In this document: positions 50,910 through 59,499 of the stretch, piece by piece
Position numbering within the stretch: the stretch's first letter is position 1
How the letters are laid out: the number at the start of each line of letters is the position of its first letter
Assembly: GCA_030442055.1 (NCBI GenBank)
Contig: JAUJEB010000001.1
Span: forward strand, 682,001 to 746,000
Length of the DNA stretch: 64,000 nt
Direction of reading: 5' to 3'
Origin: Agaribacillus aureus
Lineage (GTDB): Bacteria; Bacteroidota; Bacteroidia; Cytophagales; Cyclobacteriaceae
Notes under the pieces: generated by a model
Databases searched by the model: none
Seen by the model: only the letters and a program-made list of their open reading frames with translations
What the model was told of the DNA's origin: nothing
Made by a program: the position numbers and the translations under genes

Positions 50910-51002
50910 TGGTAGCTTTGATTTCCATCATTGAAAAATGGGCGCGCTATGCGGAAATTAAAGGCTGATTTTAAAGAAAAGTTAATGCTAACTACAAAAG
51001 CA

Positions 51003-51833
51003 ATGAAGTTAAAAAATATTCTGGTACCAACAGATTTTTCCACCTGCGCCAAAAATGCTTTGATCAATGCGATCAACATTGCCGAATTCAGCGGGGCCAA
51101 GCTAATCCTGATGAGCGCTTTTCACGTGCCCGTTCCACATGCCAGGGTTGGCACGGCCACTATTGTGCATACTTTGGCCACCGAAGTGGAAGAAGTCGTC
51201 AAGGAAGATTTTGAAAAATTGGTAAACTCTCTGCCGCAGCTTGACCGGATCGACTACGAATGTGTCATAAAACATGGTTTTGCTGTGGAAGAAGTTTTGA
51301 CCGCCATTGAAGACTACGATATTGATCTTGTAATTATGGGGACCCATGGCGCCACCGGTGTAGAGGCGGTTTTTCTTGGAAGTAATACTAACAATGTGAT
51401 TAAAAAGTCAAAAACTCCTGTTTTAGCCATTCCCAATGATTCCAGCCTTCATCAAATAAACAATATCGTGCTGGCCTCCGATTATTTGGAAATAGATGAT
51501 TACAAGAAACTGGAGGGATTAAAAATGGTTATTGAACTATTTAATGCCGAATTGCATGTATTGCATGTCAGCGCCAAACAATATATTAGCTATGAATCAG
51601 CGGCAGAAGCAAAGAAGCTGGAACATGTGCTTAAAGGAATTAAGAGGTCCTATCACTTTCAGACGCATGAAAATTTTGAAGAAGGATTAAATCAATATAT
51701 CGACGATCATCAAATTGATATGGTGGTAATCTTGCCAAGAGCCCATACCTTCCTGGAACGGGTCTTGAAGCGGAGCCATACCAGTAAACTTGTACTCAGC
51801 TCAAAAATCCCTTTACTTACCATCCACATATAA
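51003..51833 (+). CDS. Universal stress protein, two UspA domains
   Basis: 276-residue cytoplasmic protein from the ATG at 51003 (MKLKNILVPTDFSTCAKNAL). The frame is open from a TTG at 50931, but this start matches the neighbours' beginnings. The N-terminal UspA domain has the ATP-binding G-x2-G-x9-G(S/T) motif (GTHGATGVEAVFLGSN); the C-terminal domain is degenerate at the same place (LPRAHTFLERVLKRSH). First of three co-directional usp genes. Confidence 0.92.
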   Translation: MKLKNILVPTDFSTCAKNALINAINIAEFSGAKLILMSAFHVPVPHARVGTATIVHTLATEVEEVVKEDFEKLVNSLPQLDRIDYECVIKHGFAVEEVLTAIEDYDIDLVIMGTHGATGVEAVFLGSNTNNVIKKSKTPVLAIPNDSSLHQINNIVLASDYLEIDDYKKLEGLKMVIELFNAELHVLHVSAKQYISYESAAEAKKLEHVLKGIKRSYHFQTHENFEEGLNQYIDDHQIDMVVILPRAHTFLERVLKRSHTSKLVLSSKIPLLTIHI

Positions 51834-51844
51834 AAAATACTTCA

Positions 51845-52669
51845 ATGCACATCAATAACATTCTGGTTCCCATAGATTTTTCGGATTGCTCACTTAATGC
51901 ACTGCGCTATGCGTTGATCCTCGCCAAAGATTTTAAGGCGTCGATTACAGTGATCAATGGCTATAAGATCCCAATGCCGGCCGCCGACATAAACTACACC
52001 TTCGACCCCAGCATATTTGACGATTACGAAAAGGAAATGCGGGATAAATTTGCCCTGTTACCACAAAATATGCCCGAATTAACAATGGTGGAAGTACGGT
52101 ATAAAGTAAAAATGGCATTCCCAGTAGAGGCCATCGAACAGGAAATCAACAATCAGAACGTTGATTTAGTGGTGATGGGTACCAAAGGTGCTACTAATCT
52201 CGCAGAGGTGGCGATTGGCAGCAATACGTTCCATGTAGCCAAAAGATCCACCTGTCCGGTATTAGCGATTCCCGAAAATATCGCTTCCAGGAAAATAAAT
52301 AATATGGCGATTGCCGTAGACTTAAATGAGCGAGAGGAAGATTGGCCTCTGAATATGGTCATGGCCATTGCCCGGCAATTCAATGCCACCGTGCATTTTC
52401 TTCATGTAGACGATAAACCCAGCGAGATATCTTATGACCAGGCCTGGGAGGCGCTGGCATTCAAAAAGGAATTTGAAGACCTGGAAAACCAATTCCATTT
52501 TATAGAAAGCAAAAATATCGAAAGCGGGCTCGAAGAATATCTGTCAACGCATGACATTGATATGCTTGTACTTATGCCTAAAAAACACTCATTCTTTGAA
52601 AGGCTATTTAAAGGCAGTGTCACCAGAAAAATGATCCTGCACACGAAAATACCACTGTTAACTATTTAA
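51845..52669 (+). CDS. Universal stress protein, two UspA domains
   Basis: 274-residue paralogue beginning MHINNILVPIDFSDCSLNAL. ATP-binding motif in domain 1 is GTKGATNLAEVAIGSN; domain 2 lacks it. It lies 11 bases after the first usp gene, so co-transcribed. Confidence 0.93.
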   Translation: MHINNILVPIDFSDCSLNALRYALILAKDFKASITVINGYKIPMPAADINYTFDPSIFDDYEKEMRDKFALLPQNMPELTMVEVRYKVKMAFPVEAIEQEINNQNVDLVVMGTKGATNLAEVAIGSNTFHVAKRSTCPVLAIPENIASRKINNMAIAVDLNEREEDWPLNMVMAIARQFNATVHFLHVDDKPSEISYDQAWEALAFKKEFEDLENQFHFIESKNIESGLEEYLSTHDIDMLVLMPKKHSFFERLFKGSVTRKMILHTKIPLLTI

Positions 52670-52678
52670 CCGATTATT

Positions 52679-53506
52679 TTGACTGTCAAGCAAATACTCA
52701 TACCGATCGACTTTTCGACAACTTCGATCAATGCCCTGAAATACGGCGCCGTAATGGCGCAAAAATTCGGGGCCAAACTCCAAATAATGCATGCTTATCA
52801 CGTCACGGCCAGTGGGGATACGGCATTGTTTGTTAACGAAGCAATGATTGAAAATCACCAATTGCTAGCCGAAGGCAAGTTAAAAGAACTGGCTGCCGAT
52901 ATTCCGGAACTAAAGACGGTTTCTTATACGCTGTCGGTCAAATTTGGCCTCACCAGCAGTTGCATCCTGGAACGGCTTAATATAAAAGATATCGACCTGG
53001 TCATCATGGGAAGCAAGGGAGAAACCGACCTGGTCAGCAAGCTGTTTGGCAGTACCACCAATGATATCATCAATAATGCCAACTGCCCGGTTATCGCTAT
53101 ACCCAAGGAAGTGAAGGCCGTCAATTGGGACAATGTAGTAATGGCCATTGACAATACAGACATGGCTATTGAGGGACCAAAGTCCTGGGTGTCTTATCTC
53201 CACGAGATTTTTGGCAGCAAATTCCATGTTGTTCATGTCAACGACCAGCCTGATCAAAAAAATTATGAGGAATTGTTTAAACCTTCCTTGCAGCAAATTT
53301 TCGGGAACATTGCCTATCGTTTTCACACAATCACCAGCAACTCCGTCGAACGGGGCCTGATTGACTATATGAAAGGATTGGATGCCAACGTACTGATGAT
53401 ATACCCCAGAAAAAGGCATATCCTCATTGACCTATTTACACATAAGGTTACCAAACACTTATGTGAGCAAATGCACCAGCCTGTTTTTGCCTACAGGGAG
53501 GGCTAA
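52679..53506 (+). CDS. Universal stress protein, two UspA domains
   Basis: 275-residue paralogue with a TTG start (TVKQILIPIDFSTTSINALK). ATP-binding motif in domain 1 is GSKGETDLVSKLFGST; domain 2 is degenerate. It lies 9 bases after the second usp gene and runs convergently toward hisB with only 22 bases between stops. Confidence 0.92.
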   Translation: MTVKQILIPIDFSTTSINALKYGAVMAQKFGAKLQIMHAYHVTASGDTALFVNEAMIENHQLLAEGKLKELAADIPELKTVSYTLSVKFGLTSSCILERLNIKDIDLVIMGSKGETDLVSKLFGSTTNDIINNANCPVIAIPKEVKAVNWDNVVMAIDNTDMAIEGPKSWVSYLHEIFGSKFHVVHVNDQPDQKNYEELFKPSLQQIFGNIAYRFHTITSNSVERGLIDYMKGLDANVLMIYPRKRHILIDLFTHKVTKHLCEQMHQPVFAYREG

Positions 53507-54769: not shown

Positions 54770-55816
54770 TCATGACCAGGCCCGCAGCTTTTGCGCCAAT
54801 ACATCATTTTCGGCTCTGGTACCCACCGTAATCCGCAGGCAGCCCTCACAAAGGTGCACATTTGACCGGTCTCTCACTACCACCATTTCCCCGATCAAAT
54901 ATGTATATACTGCTTTGGGATCTTCCATTCTAACCAGAATAAAGTTCGCATCGCTGGGATAGATCTTTTGGACCATCTCTAATTCTGACAACGCACCGAT
55001 AAGCCATTCCCGCTCTTGAAGAGTCGATGCCACCATGGTATTTTTTATAGATTCATTGGACAGGGCCTGTAACGCTTTCTCCTGTGTAAGCCCATTGATA
55101 TTGTAAGGAGGCTTGATCCTGTTCAAAACGTTGATGATAGCAGTATGGGCAAAGGCCATACCCAGTCGCAATGCTGCCAACCCCCAGGCCTTACTAAATG
55201 TTTGCATGACAATAAGGTTGGGATATTTATCAAGATACCTGGTAAAGCTTTCATGCGAGGCAAAGTCAATATAGGCCTCATCCACCACCACGCAGCCGGA
55301 AAACTGCTCCAACAAACGGATAATCGATGTCTCGCTAAGCGCATTGCCTGTAGGGTTATTTGGGTTGCAAATAAAAATCACCTTTGTATTTGCATTGATA
55401 TGAGCGAACAAGGCCGTTTCATCAATATTAAAATCGGCCGTTAAAGGGACCTGCACCACGGCGACATTGTTAATGCCCGCCGAAACTTTATACATCCCAT
55501 AAGTCGGCGGTAAAATGATAACATTATCCTCCAGCGGTTCGCAGAAGGCTCTGATAATCAGGTCGATGGCCTCGTCGCTTCCATTGCCCAGAAAAATCTG
55601 ATCCGGCTTTACCTTCTTTATACCTGCCAGCTTTTCCTTAACCAGCCTTTGATAAGGATCCGGATAGCGATTATACTGCTCAGTAATTGCAGACCCAATC
55701 GCATTTTCGTTGGCATCCAGGAAAATTCTGGCCTCTCCTGAAAACTCATCTCTGGCAGAAGAATAGGGCTCCAGCTCCTTTAGATGACTGCGCAAGATCT
55801 TATCCAGTTCAAACAT
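54770..55816 (-). CDS. hisC: Histidinol-phosphate aminotransferase HisC
   Basis: 348-residue PLP-dependent aminotransferase (fold type I) of histidine synthesis. Visible: GNGSDEAIDLIIRAF, the substrate-site NPNNPTGNALS, DEAYIDFASHES and the PLP-lysine in TFSKAWGLAALRLG. It overlaps the end of hisD by 8 bases. Length is as expected. Confidence 0.97.
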   Translation of the reverse strand: MFELDKILRSHLKELEPYSSARDEFSGEARIFLDANENAIGSAITEQYNRYPDPYQRLVKEKLAGIKKVKPDQIFLGNGSDEAIDLIIRAFCEPLEDNVIILPPTYGMYKVSAGINNVAVVQVPLTADFNIDETALFAHINANTKVIFICNPNNPTGNALSETSIIRLLEQFSGCVVVDEAYIDFASHESFTRYLDKYPNLIVMQTFSKAWGLAALRLGMAFAHTAIINVLNRIKPPYNINGLTQEKALQALSNESIKNTMVASTLQEREWLIGALSELEMVQKIYPSDANFILVRMEDPKAVYTYLIGEMVVVRDRSNVHLCEGCLRITVGTRAENDVLAQKLRAWS

Positions 55817-57110
55817 CCTTTGACTCCGTTAGGTATTTTAATCTTACAGACACGGCCTCCTTATGCCCAATGAGCTCCTCTGCCGCTGCCATCACCTCCA
55901 CGGTATTTCCAATGTTTTTGAGGCCTTCCGGCGTCAATTTCTGGTAGGTGATTTTTTTTACAAAGCTATCCAGAGAAACACCGCTATAAGCTCTGGCAAA
56001 CCCGTTGGTAGGAAGTGTATGGTTGGTGCCTGAGGCATAATCACCTACTGATTCCGGAGAAAAATTGCCTACAAAGACAGATCCGGCATTGATCACCTTG
56101 CCGGCTATCTCATCTTCATTTTGCACAGCGAGAATTAAGTGCTCCGGCCCGTACTGATTCAGCAGCGCGAGCGCCTCATCTTCATTTGCCACCAAGATGG
56201 CAAGGCTATTGGCAAGGGAAGCTTCGGCAATTTCTCGGCGCGGTAGTTTTGCCAGCTGTTGCTGCAAGGCTATATTTGATTGTTCGATGATGTTTTCCGA
56301 GGTGCTCACCAAAAGCACCTGACTGTCAACTCCATGCTCGGCCTGCGATAACAGGTCGGCGGCAATAAACTCGGGGATAGCTTTTTCATCCGCCATTACC
56401 GCTACTTCGGAAGGGCCAGCAGGCATGTCTATGGCCGTATTTTCCGCATTAACCAACTGTTTGGCCATGGTGACATATTGATTTCCGGGACCAAATATTT
56501 TGTAGACCTGAGGCACTGTTTCTGTGCCATAAGCCATCGCCGCAATAGCCTGGGCGCCACCTGCTTTTACAATTTTACTGACACCCACCAATTTCGCGGT
56601 ATATAAGATGGCGGGGTGAATCACGCCCTCTTTTCCCGGAGGCGTGCAGAGGATTATTTCCTTGCAACCGGCAATCTTTGCGGGAATGCCCAGCATCAAT
56701 ACGGTAGAAAATAAGGGAGCGGTACCGCCCGGAATATAAAGACCTACCTTTTCAATAGGCACACTTTTCCTGGTACAAACCACACCGGGTACAGTCTCTA
56801 CCGTAAGTTGCTCCTCTTTTTGAGCCTCGTGAAACCGCAAAATATTTGCCTTGGCCAGCAGAATTGCCGTTTTTAGATCAGGGTCTAAACCCACTTCCGC
56901 CTGGTCGATAACTTGCTGGTCAACGATCAGCTCAGAAGACTGATAACCGTCGAGTTTGCTGTTGAAACCGATCAGCGCTTTATCGCCACCTTTCTTTACT
57001 TCTTCCAAAATTGGTCTTACAATTTCTGCCAGCTCTTTTCCATCATGCGCAGGCCGTTTAAGCAGATCCTCCCACGAAGATTTCTCCGGATATTTTATGA
57101 CACGCATCAT
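55809..57110 (-). CDS. hisD: Histidinol dehydrogenase HisD
   Basis: 433-residue NAD-dependent zinc enzyme for the last two oxidations of histidine synthesis. Visible: the family signature in GPGNQYVTMAKQLVN, the catalytic/zinc region SQAEHGVDSQVLL and the late YGPEHL. Beginning MMRVIKYPEKSSWEDLL; the second Met is an equally good start. It overlaps hisC by 8 bases and follows hisG after 14 bases. Confidence 0.97.
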   Translation of the reverse strand: MMRVIKYPEKSSWEDLLKRPAHDGKELAEIVRPILEEVKKGGDKALIGFNSKLDGYQSSELIVDQQVIDQAEVGLDPDLKTAILLAKANILRFHEAQKEEQLTVETVPGVVCTRKSVPIEKVGLYIPGGTAPLFSTVLMLGIPAKIAGCKEIILCTPPGKEGVIHPAILYTAKLVGVSKIVKAGGAQAIAAMAYGTETVPQVYKIFGPGNQYVTMAKQLVNAENTAIDMPAGPSEVAVMADEKAIPEFIAADLLSQAEHGVDSQVLLVSTSENIIEQSNIALQQQLAKLPRREIAEASLANSLAILVANEDEALALLNQYGPEHLILAVQNEDEIAGKVINAGSVFVGNFSPESVGDYASGTNHTLPTNGFARAYSGVSLDSFVKKITYQKLTPEGLKNIGNTVEVMAAAEELIGHKEAVSVRLKYLTESKDV

Positions 57111-57124
57111 AATAAATGATTATT

Positions 57125-57985
57125 TTATATTACCATCTTTTCAATTGGTACCACCAGAATTCCCTGCGCCCCTTCGGCTCTCAGGTTCTCAATTACTTCC
57201 CAAAATTCTCCTTCACCTATTACGGAATGCACCGAGCTCCAGCCTTCAATGGCCAAAGGCAGTACGGTGGGGCTTTTCATTCCCGGAATTATACTAATAA
57301 TTTTATCCAGGGAGTCATTGGGCGCATTCAATAAAATATATCTGTTTTTTTCGCCGGTTTGTACAGCGTTGATCCTAAATAACAGTCGCTCCAATATCTC
57401 CTTTTTCGCGGCATTCATATTGGGCGACCCTACCAGTACTGCCTCGGAATGCATCAGCACCTCCACCTCTTTCAGACCATTGGTAAACAAGGTGCTCCCG
57501 GAACTTACCAAATCACAGATAGCGTCTGCCAGGCCGATATTGGGCGCTATTTCTACGGAGCCACTAATCTCATGAATGTCTGCGGTAAGGTTGTTCTTAT
57601 CTAAAAATTCCTGCAAAATCTTTGGATAGGAGGTGGCAATACTAACCCGATCAAAATATTTGATCCCTGTATATTCCTTTTCCTTCGGTATAGCGAGGGA
57701 AAGGCGGCATTTGGAAAATCCCAGGTTTTTGACCACATCTATGTTTTTTCCCTTTTCCAGCAACACATTTTTACCCACAATGCCAAGGTCAGCTACTCCG
57801 TCGGCTACGTAGCCCGGAATGTCGTCATCTCTTAGAAAAAGAAATTCCATAGGAAAATTGCCGGCAATAGAAGTAAGTTTTCCTTTTCCGTTGTTCACGT
57901 TGATTCCGCATTCCTGAATTAACTTCAGTGAGTCGTTGCTCAGTCTGCCGGATTTTTGGATGGCTAATTTTATTTTTTCAGACAT
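57125..57985 (-). CDS. hisG: ATP phosphoribosyltransferase HisG (long form)
   Basis: First enzyme of histidine synthesis. 286 residues from the ATG at 57985 (MSEKIKLAIQKSGRLSND); the frame is open upstream to 58033. The catalytic domains have ADGVADLGIVGKNVLLEKG and EISGSVEIAPNIGLADAICD; the last about 75 residues form the regulatory histidine-binding domain of the long-form hexameric HisG. A leader peptide and attenuator-like hairpins lie upstream, so expression is likely controlled by histidine supply. Confidence 0.96.
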   Translation of the reverse strand: MSEKIKLAIQKSGRLSNDSLKLIQECGINVNNGKGKLTSIAGNFPMEFLFLRDDDIPGYVADGVADLGIVGKNVLLEKGKNIDVVKNLGFSKCRLSLAIPKEKEYTGIKYFDRVSIATSYPKILQEFLDKNNLTADIHEISGSVEIAPNIGLADAICDLVSSGSTLFTNGLKEVEVLMHSEAVLVGSPNMNAAKKEILERLLFRINAVQTGEKNRYILLNAPNDSLDKIISIIPGMKSPTVLPLAIEGWSSVHSVIGEGEFWEVIENLRAEGAQGILVVPIEKMVI

Positions 57986-58012
57986 TTTAGAATTAGTTAT
58001 ATAAAAGCTAAG

Positions 58013-58125
58013 TTGCTTGGTAAAGCAAACCAAATAGTATATTCCAGTGAATAATTGGCGATATTTGAATTTTATTCCTCTTACGAGGAATGATGGAAAT
58101 GATGAGCTTCCACGATAACATCGTG
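58013..58125 (-). promoter_or_regulatory. Putative his attenuator hairpins
   Basis: Three short perfect hairpins between the leader peptide and hisG: CACGAT-AAC-ATCGTG (58111-58125, inside the leader gene), ATTCCTC-TTAC-GAGGAAT (58074-58091, its loop holds the leader stop codon) and TTGCTT-GGTA-AAGCAA (58013-58028, plus-strand reading). The last is followed on the minus strand by a moderately T-rich stretch. Alternative pairings should be modelled; the terminator arm is the least certain part. Confidence 0.5.
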
Positions 58126-58161
58126 TAAAGAAATGGTAGGAAATTTATTTGCACTGCTCAT
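58081..58161 (-). CDS. Putative histidine-rich leader peptide of the his operon
   Basis: A 26-codon frame starting with ATG 8 bases after the -7 box and ending 95 bases before hisG. Translation: MSSANKFPTISLHDV and then IVEAHHFHHSS. It contains five His codons, four of them within the last seven residues as HHFHH. A cluster of the operon's own end-product codons next to hairpins is the classic mark of transcription attenuation. No homologue is claimed here. Confidence 0.7.
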   Translation of the reverse strand: MSSANKFPTISLHDVIVEAHHFHHSS

Positions 58162-58168
58162 TTGACTG

Positions 58169-58198
58169 CAAATATAAGGCTATTTCATTGATAACAAA
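58169..58198 (-). promoter_or_regulatory. Bacteroidota-type promoter of the his operon
   Basis: Minus-strand -33 TTTG (58195-58198), 18-base spacer and -7 TATATTTG (58169-58176), matching the TTTG-N19-TAnnTTTG consensus. Transcription would start only a few bases before the leader ATG, so the leader mRNA may be nearly leaderless. Confidence 0.65.
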
Positions 58199-58262
58199 AT
58201 TTACGCGATTTTTATATTTGGAAGTTTTGTAAAACCTGAAAATTCATTGCGAACTAAGGCCA

Positions 58263-58613
58263 CTAGCCACCTACTTTTTTGGCCTTGTAGCCGTTTGCCT
58301 GCAGTACCTCCAGGACTTTGTCTCTAAAATCTCCCTGGATTAAAATCTCTCCATCCTTCGCAGTTCCTCCTACACCGCATTTCGACTTTAACACCTTGCC
58401 AAGCGCCTTCAGGTCGTCGTTACTTCCGACGAATCCTTCCACCAGTGTTACCTGCTTACCGCCACGCTTCTTCTTATCCAGCATGACTTTCAACTGCTGT
58501 TGGCCGGGTGGCAATGTTGCGGCTTCTTCTTCCGAATTGTATTCATAGTCAAAATCCGGGTTGGTTGAAAAAACCACCCCGGATCTATCTTTTCGATTAT
58601 TTTTTCTACTCAT
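58263..58613 (-). CDS. SUI1/eIF1-like translation initiation factor (YciH-type)
   Basis: 116-residue protein with a SUI1 domain in its C-terminal two thirds: KRGGKQVTLVEGFVGSNDDL, KSKCGVGGTAKDGEILIQGD and VLEVLQANGYKAKKVGG. The N-terminal about 35 residues are charged and variable. In bacteria these proteins are thought to affect start-site selection or stress-related translation. It lies 37 bases past the fourth usp gene. Confidence 0.92.
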   Translation of the reverse strand: MSRKNNRKDRSGVVFSTNPDFDYEYNSEEEAATLPPGQQQLKVMLDKKKRGGKQVTLVEGFVGSNDDLKALGKVLKSKCGVGGTAKDGEILIQGDFRDKVLEVLQANGYKAKKVGG

Positions 58614-58650: not shown

Positions 58651-59499
58651 TTATCCATGAATATTCAAAGTCCAGACCGGCCGTTTGGCATGGTTTACTA
58701 CATCTTCGGCAATACTGCCACTCAGAAGGTGCATCAAACCGGTTCTTCCATGTGTCACCAGGGCAATCATATCTACCTGACTCTCAGCAGCAAAATGCAA
58801 TATTCCATCTTCTTCCGATAATTCATTATAAATGTTTAATGTATAATCTTCGAGCTGATAGTCGCCGGCAAATTTCTTCATTAAGTTTTTACTAACCTGG
58901 TCTCTTTCAAAGTTATTGGGGGTATTCACCTTTAGCAGGTGTAATTTTCCGACAAAGATCTTTTGTAGCTTTTTTAAATGGTCGATGATTTTGTCATTGT
59001 TTTCGGTAAAGCTACTGGCAAATAATATTTCTCCAATATCGGTAATATTTACTTTATGCTTAACGGTAATAACCGGGCATCTCGCATAACGCACTACTTT
59101 TTCGGCATTGGAACCTATTAGCACTTCGTCTATGCCGCTCGCCCCCTTGGTCCCCATAACGACCAGTTCAACCTCATGTTCTGATATTGTAGCTGCGATG
59201 CTCTTGTAAGGATTACCTATTTGAATATCAAAGCGAATATCGATATCGGAGTACTGGGGATCTTCAATGATGGCCGTTAGATCAGCTCTCACCTTTTTGA
59301 TAAGTTGTAAAATGTAAACATTGCTTTCAAAATCGCCAGGCAATGCATCGCCCAGGGCACTGAAATTCTGGCTTGTAGGGTGCTCGATAACATTTAATAA
59401 GATGAGTCTGGCATTAGATTTTCTCGCGATCTGGTAGGCCAGATCCAGTGCATGATGGGACTCTTCTGAAAAATCAATAGGGACTAATACTCTATCCAT
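58651..59499 (-). CDS. Universal stress protein, two UspA domains
   Basis: 282-residue protein beginning MDRVLVPIDFSEESHHALDL. Domain 1 has the ATP-binding motif GTKGASGIDEVLIGSN; domain 2 has a near-complete one (THGRTGLMHLLSGS) without the first Gly, so it is better preserved than in the tandem usp genes. A related palindrome lies 59 bases before its start. Probably co-transcribed with the SUI1-like gene. Confidence 0.93.
   Translation of the reverse strand: MDRVLVPIDFSEESHHALDLAYQIARKSNARLILLNVIEHPTSQNFSALGDALPGDFESNVYILQLIKKVRADLTAIIEDPQYSDIDIRFDIQIGNPYKSIAATISEHEVELVVMGTKGASGIDEVLIGSNAEKVVRYARCPVITVKHKVNITDIGEILFASSFTENNDKIIDHLKKLQKIFVGKLHLLKVNTPNNFERDQVSKNLMKKFAGDYQLEDYTLNIYNELSEEDGILHFAAESQVDMIALVTHGRTGLMHLLSGSIAEDVVNHAKRPVWTLNIHG

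Follow-up and report, generated by a model that had tools for sequence, protein, structure and literature searches.

A putative histidine-sensing leader without a U-tract terminator precedes the hisGDC operon of Agaribacillus aureus

The hisG-hisD-hisC operon of Agaribacillus aureus is preceded by a short open reading frame (ORF) that ends in a run of histidine codons, and this leader is very probably genuine and conserved, a sensor of the histidine supply that works via the ribosome. Comparison with related loci indicates, at the level of sequence, that members of its clade have a His leader with no U-tract terminator behind it, with the His codons placed at the leader stop codon, with a hairpin around that stop codon and with a characteristic geometry of promoter box and leader ATG. 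As to the input, the anatomy of the leader makes it highly probable that the ribosome senses histidine on its His codons. As to the output, a tentative reading, whose chances we put just short of even, is that of a ribosome-sensed histidine leader for hisGDC in which a starved ribosome would block Rho-type termination in the manner of TnaC. The window referred to below is the whole stretch of 64,000 nucleotides that was analysed (contig JAUJEB010000001.1, positions 682,001 to 746,000).

Organization of the his leader locus

The his leader and hisG lie on the minus strand of the window in the order promoter, 26-codon ORF ending in HHFHHSS, hairpins and hisG, with the following features:

58169-58198, minus strand: putative promoter, read from the sequence, with TTTG at 58198-58195, an 18-nt spacer and the sigma-A -7 box TATATTTG at 58176-58169
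58081-58161, minus strand: his leader ORF of 26 codons, MSSANKFPTISLHDVIVEAHHFHHSS, with TAA at 58083-58081
58111-58125, minus strand: hairpin CACGAT-gtt-ATCGTG within the leader ORF, from the sequence
58085-58105, minus strand: CAT CAT TTC CAT CAT TCC TCG (HHFHHSS), comprising the regulatory His codons with a pair of Ser codons
58074-58091, minus strand: stop-codon hairpin ATTCCTC-gtaa-GAGGAAT with the leader TAA in its loop, from sequence and fold
58057-58064, minus strand: ATATCGCC motif, 16 nt 3' of the stop codon, a possible RNA polymerase pause site
58013-58058, minus strand: two weak spacer hairpins (58058-58028 and 58028-58013) without a U-tract, from the fold
57125-57985, minus strand: hisG, ATP phosphoribosyltransferase (TIGR00070, NCBIfam), ATG at 57985, first gene of the operon (hisG-hisD-hisC)
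55809-57110, minus strand: hisD, histidinol dehydrogenase (TIGR00069, NCBIfam)
54770-55816, minus strand: hisC, histidinol-phosphate transaminase (TIGR01141, NCBIfam)

An earlier, sequence-only reading of this DNA had described a promoter TTTG-N18-TATATTTG without naming its strand, a 26-codon frame ending in HHFHHSS before hisG, and a second hairpin with the leader stop codon in its loop; all of these are present, on the minus strand. It had also placed three hairpins in this order before hisG, and all three can be found, although the last of them (58028-58013, TTGCTTTACCAAGCAA) has no U-tract and the spacer folds no better than shuffled sequence. Its wider claim, that the region has the layout of ribosome-mediated attenuation, stands for the His leader peptide with its conserved frame and His cluster, but not for a classical terminator hairpin, the U-tract being absent. 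Seven nucleotides separate the TATATTTG box from the leader ATG (58161-58159), and the spacer between the leader stop codon and hisG is 95 nt long. The sister genome G009 encodes a 26-aa homologue of the leader with a comparable internal hairpin (ACGAT-tta-ATCGT), and has a different hairpin at the place of the last spacer hairpin.

Upstream, and likewise on the minus strand, a SUI1/YciH-like gene ends at 58263, so that the his promoter sits between this gene and hisG. Beyond hisC, the ORF at 54626-53529 resembles hisB as judged by eye. Three consecutive ORFs on the plus strand (50931-53506) have N-termini which by eye resemble universal stress proteins, and with another member of the universal stress protein family on the minus strand (58651-59499, NCBIfam) they flank the his operon.

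Folding of the window sequence was compared with that of shuffles. The stretch following the stop hairpin (58070-58013) folds no better than these (z -0.89, 38/200 as good) and the stretch 58090-57985 not clearly better (z -1.61, 15/200). The longer stretch 58130-57985 does fold better (z -3.56, 0/200), an excess due to a long-range stem which G009 does not show; this candidate pairing of the leader with the sequence just before hisG is absent in G009 both by eye and by fold, and was dropped. A simple terminator scan of positions 57500-58600 returned no terminators, and an Rfam scan of the window at gathering scores gave no match, neither to His_leader (RF00514) nor to a T-box riboswitch.

Conservation of the His leader

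Regions upstream of hisG were collected from 142 loci, which became 139 on removal of three duplicates (L033, on the same contig as L002; L096, the same as L068; and L104, the same as L094). They came from four named contigs (including Cytophagales MAGs and a Chryseobacterium), from 90 of the 183 own-family genomes with a match, and from a phylum search of which 50 of the 128 matches were used, some overlapping earlier loci, while the 52 most distant (E-value 1.6e-38 or worse) were left out. The own family of the window, Cyclobacteriaceae (f1), accounts for 91 of the 139 loci.

The comparison of these regions for conserved His codons, which had been suggested as a check, recovered the frame and its His cluster in 125/139 loci, counted as a short ORF with at least three His in seven codons no more than 300 nt before hisG, as against 5.1% of shuffles. 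At least four His in seven codons are found in 98/139 loci (0.2% of shuffles) and at least five in 46/139 (0 of 4170 shuffles), Leu being the next commonest residue to reach five in seven codons, in six loci. In the clade of the window both the HHxHHSS ending and the hairpin around the stop codon recur. A covariance model (R1, built from 34 sequences), searched with strict filters, found one match each in 34/118 family genomes, and all 34 are directly upstream of hisG. The alignment of 34 rows (A1) omits seven of the 41 type-B rows which were hard to align (L043, L060, L075, L080, L085, L090, and L093).

It is this conservation that is the decisive evidence for a his leader. A functionless His-rich ORF that arose by chance would, for the window by itself, be a matter of about 1 in 1500, since four His in seven codons turn up in 2/3000 dinucleotide shuffles of the 300-nt region before hisG; the reappearance across dozens of genera of the His cluster, the stop hairpin and the promoter spacing already contradicts this explanation, leaving it a negligible probability.

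Fewer than three His in seven codons within 300 nt were found at 14 of the 139 loci (L004, L025, L057, L059, L064, L076, L087, L100, L102, L103, L105, L108, L139, and L141), the script having chosen TTG as the hisG start in L102, L103 and L105. L102, L103, L105, L108, and L141 lie outside the own family and have no recognizable His leader. At the level of the order, hisG was found in 61/79 genomes, giving 26 new loci from other families (L230-L255), of which 8/26 have a His leader and 18/26 have none within 300 nt; in these 18 it may have been lost, moved or replaced. The leader is therefore widespread rather than universal.

His leaders with and without a terminator

Terminators were sought as a hairpin with a T-run between the leader end and hisG, a strong one having -12 kcal/mol or better. 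Such a strong terminator is present in 45/139 loci, compared with 0.6% of shuffles. With L130 (where the stop hairpin is what was detected) and L076 (which has no more than two His) set aside, there are 43 leaders of the terminator type and 83 terminator-less leaders, the latter becoming 82 once L014, a near copy of L013, is removed. The resulting 125 leaders (43 and 82) differ from the 125 counted above in that the reach was 450 nt, which adds L139 and drops L014; with this reach L040 is given a distant ORF that is probably wrong. The leader of the window belongs to the terminator-less kind.

The two kinds differ in more than the terminator. The His cluster ends no more than three codons from the stop codon in 65/82 terminator-less leaders (the window included) and in 3/43 with a terminator (Fisher p 1.5e-15), the stop codon lies in a hairpin loop in 52/82 against 2/43 (p 4e-11), a perfect TAnnTTTG box is found 4-10 nt 5' of the leader ATG in 59/82 against 5/43 (p 8e-11), and the spacer has more C than G in 75/82 against 24/43 (p 1e-5), all of these p-values being optimistic because genera share ancestry and are not fully independent. 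The median distance from the last His to the stop codon is 8 codons in the terminator type and 2 codons in the terminator-less type. As regards the hairpins, whose conservation the sequence-only reading had proposed to examine, the stop hairpin recurs in the 52/82 loci mentioned, and the last spacer hairpin is replaced in G009.

Within the own family, 84 leaders fall into 50 genera without a terminator and 14 with one, none being mixed. Counted by genus, the His codons are at the stop codon in 43/50 genera without a terminator against 0/14 with one, the stop hairpin is present in 31/50 against 0/14, the box lies 4-10 nt before the ATG in 38/50 against 1/14, and C exceeds G in 49/50 against 10/14. 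Among 12 terminator-less loci outside the own family, the His codons are at the stop codon in 5, the stop hairpin is present in 6, the box in 3 and C>G in 11; seven further terminator-less loci from other families of the order gave the stop hairpin in 2, the box in 3, the ATAYYGYC motif in 0 and C>G in 7. As a package, these features are strong within the own family but patchy elsewhere.

No terminator was detected in the first 300 nt of hisG in any of the terminator-less loci with that much hisG sequence (0/32). When the stretch from the leader start to hisG is taken, a strong hairpin with a T-run occurs in three terminator-less loci, namely L130, where it is the stop hairpin, and L054 and L092, where it lies at the 5' end of the stretch. 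L099 is terminator-less by the -12 threshold, yet it has a hairpin of -9.8 with a T-run and is probably in fact of the terminator kind.

Leaders of trpE and ilvD in the same genomes

The genes trpE and ilvD were searched for in 60 family genomes. In all 40 genomes whose trpE upstream region was examined, a frame with at least two Trp in seven codons is present (40/40). The hisG region was available for 36 of these 40 genomes and has a His leader in 35, and in these 35 genomes with both leaders a strong terminator is found at trpE in 35/35 and at hisG in 6/35. The genome of the window is an example (L156): its trp leader MKHFTLHNDYWWHLTELSIK has a U-tract terminator behind it, upstream of trpE, made up of GCTCACTG-TTCA-CAGTGGGC with nine T following. 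The last Trp has a median distance of 7.5 codons from the stop codon and lies within three codons of it in only 3/40, so that in this distance the trp leaders resemble the his leaders of the terminator type and not the terminator-less ones.

Of 30 regions upstream of ilvD, 15 have a frame with at least five V/I/L in seven codons, and 13 of these 15 have a terminator-like hairpin; the ilvD upstream region of the window's own genome has neither such a frame nor such a hairpin. Intrinsic termination thus seems available to these genomes, and the lack of it before hisG specific. It should be mentioned that before ilvD of G009 (L197), where a branched-chain leader is expected, there is a short ORF MNNWWWGWSLRVRDGESRANDFLKLI with a run of Trp, possibly due to chance or part of a repeat.

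In a TrpE tree of 25 genomes, the terminator label requires three changes, at least two of which are forced by well supported branches. One possible reading, which we hold with somewhat less than even confidence, is that the phylum contains two interconvertible kinds of his attenuator. In the first, the ribosome would stall about 8 codons before the leader stop codon, and this distant stall would decide between terminator and antiterminator; in the second, which is leaderless and has its His codons at a stop hairpin, the ribosome would shield the RNA from Rho. Evolution would have gone from one kind to the other, and the trp leaders of these genomes would have stayed classical.

Stop-codon hairpin, alternative pairing and the ATAYYGYC motif

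The stop hairpins of the 52 terminator-less loci comprise 20 different inner stems, and the control in which the 25 nt after the stop codon were shuffled gives a stop hairpin in 7.6%. In the 34-row alignment A1, RNAalifold keeps four pairs of this hairpin, none with two-sided changes, and it is only across the wider set that differing stems are seen.

Could the spacer hairpin itself be the terminator? As in a classical his attenuator, transcription would then end at this hairpin with a short or broken U-run, mutually exclusive pairing making the decision. Folding yields a spacer hairpin in the 41 type-B loci, some of these have a few U after it (L071, L056, L009), and single sequences hint at pairing of ATATCGCCC with its 5' arm (L034, L095, L039, L088). 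Against this, the eight positions that follow the spacer hairpin contain on average 2.54 T, which does not exceed the expectation from base composition, and at least 5 T in only 5/41; the window spacer folds no better than shuffles; and a strong hairpin with a U-tract is missing from the terminator-less class, while the trp leaders and 13/15 ilvD regions of the same genomes have one. The pairing of ATATCGCCC (X) with the 5' arm of the spacer hairpin (Y), which looked covarying in single loci, is not supported, as 250/2000 permutations reach the observed value, and 152/2000 do so in 18 diverged loci, neither being significant. The same permutation test gives 0/2000 for the spacer hairpin (Y:Z), but here it is circular because the hairpin was picked by folding. 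Overall, we consider the classical attenuator rather unlikely for the terminator-less leaders.

Control could also be exerted on translation, with the stalled leader ribosome remodelling RNA which otherwise hides the hisG start, and the distance of 39-60 nt between leader stop and hisG start in some members would be in keeping with this. Masking of the hisG start by RNA structure was computed for 76 terminator-less and 38 terminator loci and is not supported, since the position of the ribosome makes on average no difference in the terminator-less loci: the mean accessibility of the start in these 76 is 0.606 with no ribosome, 0.607 with one at the first His and 0.607 with one at the stop codon. 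None of the loci gains more than 0.15 on stalling as compared with naked RNA, and one does so as compared with a ribosome at the stop codon. Translational attenuation is accordingly given a low probability, well below that of the classical attenuator.

The motif ATAYYGYC begins 16 or 17 nt after the stop codon in 31/83 terminator-less loci and in 0/43 with a terminator, and the bases between it and the stop codon are mostly variable. It may represent a pause site, as the active site of the polymerase would be near the motif once the stop hairpin has cleared the enzyme, and its pyrimidine-G step is pause-like.

Promoter position and the near-leaderless ORF

The sigma-A box of Flavobacterium psychrophilum, TAnnTTTG, occupies positions -12 to -5 (PMC9723704). 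Applied to the window, this predicts +1 near 58164, and in general a gap of g nt from the box to the ATG would mean a 5' UTR of g-4 nt; the gap of 7 in the window corresponds to a predicted 5' UTR of approximately 3 nt. Among the 77 terminator-less leaders with an in-frame ATG, gaps of 0-3 do not occur (0/77) and gaps run from 4 upward, and this floor of 4 is what a leaderless limit predicts from sequence. The leader ORF is hence predicted to be nearly leaderless. Leaderless mRNAs make up 5.5% of 890 with a high-confidence start in F. psychrophilum (PMC9723704), and about 3.7% of 5' UTRs in B. thetaiotaomicron are shorter than 10 nt (PMC7366714).

The TAnnTTTG box is found at the same distance before hisG itself in 2/139 loci. 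A related sequence, TAnnTTGY, which resembles the promoter box SM5 described in F. psychrophilum (PMC9723704), occurs 3-7 nt before the hisG ATG in 14/139 loci (L009, L012, L015, L017, L019, L022, L027, L036, L037, L038, L046, L050, L089, and L095), the window not being among them; such a box could give rise to a second hisG transcript, itself leaderless, which would avoid the leader.

With a predicted 5' UTR of 0-6 nt and a stall within about 80 nt of the 5' end, one may also think of stability control, in which the his mRNA, being nearly leaderless, would be shielded from decay by a ribosome that has halted close to its 5' end. This would leave the position of the His codons at the stop codon and the stop-codon hairpin unexplained, and we regard it as improbable, if a little less so than control at the hisG start.

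Proposed mechanism

In the mechanism that we propose, transcription would start about 3 nt before the leader AUG and ribosomes would load on an ORF with hardly any 5' UTR. A shortage of charged His-tRNA would stall the ribosome on the HHxHH codons, at the far end of the ORF, and there it would cover both the stop-codon hairpin and the first part of the spacer. With ample histidine, the ribosome would finish and leave, and the RNA of the His codons and the spacer would be exposed. Rho termination would then occur in or just after the spacer, being blocked by the stalled ribosome and permitted by the released one, as in TnaC. The start site, the stalling, the part played by Rho and the pause at ATATCGCC are the elements that we infer. 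The position of the stall at the leader end would fit a TnaC-like geometry, given the 65/82 leaders with a His cluster no more than three codons from the stop codon.

As there is no intrinsic terminator after the leader, factor-dependent (Rho) termination is the most likely read-out. The spacers without a terminator have 21.5% C and 13.6% G, compared with approximately 17% each before other genes, and C-rich, G-poor RNA is the described binding site of Rho (PMC8346122). The rho gene is encoded in 18 of the 19 genomes searched, the window's own genome included. Speaking against Rho, the window spacer is weakly C-rich (15 C and 11 G), and the distance of 39-60 nt from stop codon to hisG in some members is short for a rut site. 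The excess of C over G is the weakest of the markers, because 24/43 spacers of the terminator type and 10/14 such genera have it too. The stop hairpin is also not accounted for by Rho alone, and the patchy occurrence of the package in other families is a further weak point.

These leaders add to the control of amino-acid operons by leaders in a phylum with few descriptions of it, and offer a natural experiment in which one input, uncharged His-tRNA, is read with and without an intrinsic terminator among genera of one family, a classical trp leader standing beside the terminator-less his leader in the same cell. Should Rho indeed provide the read-out, the output would be set by the position of the stall relative to the stop codon and not by a choice of hairpins. 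The nearly leaderless ORF also bears on how translation starts in Bacteroidota without Shine-Dalgarno sequences.

Comparison with known leaders

The his and trp attenuators of enterobacteria (RF00514 for his) likewise place a short ORF, in which regulatory codons follow one another in a run, ahead of the first gene, and in the E. coli trp leader the hairpin of segments 1:2 surrounds the leader stop codon. The leaders described here differ from these in that there is no U-tract terminator, the His codons end at the stop codon and the ORF is nearly leaderless by prediction. When 11 loci were scanned with RF00514 to an E-value of 5, the only match was L134, which is of the terminator type, with 36.8 bits and so below the gathering score of 49.

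Work by Vitreschak from 2004 is said to mention Bacteroidetes/Chlorobi. Closer in lineage, being of the same phylum, are the flavobacterial leader elements and the Bacteroid-trp RNA (RF01692), the latter listed as a motif by Weinberg in 2010 (PMC2864571). In F. psychrophilum, strong clues for leader-peptide attenuation before amino-acid operons were reported in 2021, along with structured 5' elements without Rfam matches, one of them before hisG (PMC9723704). The earlier remark that such attenuation is much less described in Bacteroidota is fair as a statement of degree, although not absolute in view of these clues and this motif. With the flavobacterial leaders there is a difference, in that the leader of Chryseobacterium (L005), the one named flavobacterium in the set, is of the terminator kind, as are 29/41 leaders from beyond the own family. 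In the portions consulted of the open literature searched, with subscription papers mostly outside its scope, no his leader of the terminator-less kind was recognized.

With regard to the putative role of Rho, the nearest parallel is the leader peptide TnaC of the E. coli tna operon, where the ribosome stalls at the leader stop codon and keeps Rho off, the stalling being due to a nascent peptide that senses tryptophan. Here the stall would come from uncharged His-tRNA at the His codons, and Rho would be the presumed counterpart. Translation of the TnaC leader decides whether Rho can load beside it. The same is described for the MgtL leader (PMC8346122). The leaderless trpL of Sinorhizobium meliloti has a transcript which begins at the AUG of the leader ORF, as is predicted here, and is an alphaproteobacterial transcription attenuator (PMC7298713); the present leaders belong to another phylum, respond by prediction to histidine and have no terminator. 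The kind of control is known, and the architecture found in this clade is a distinct variant of it.
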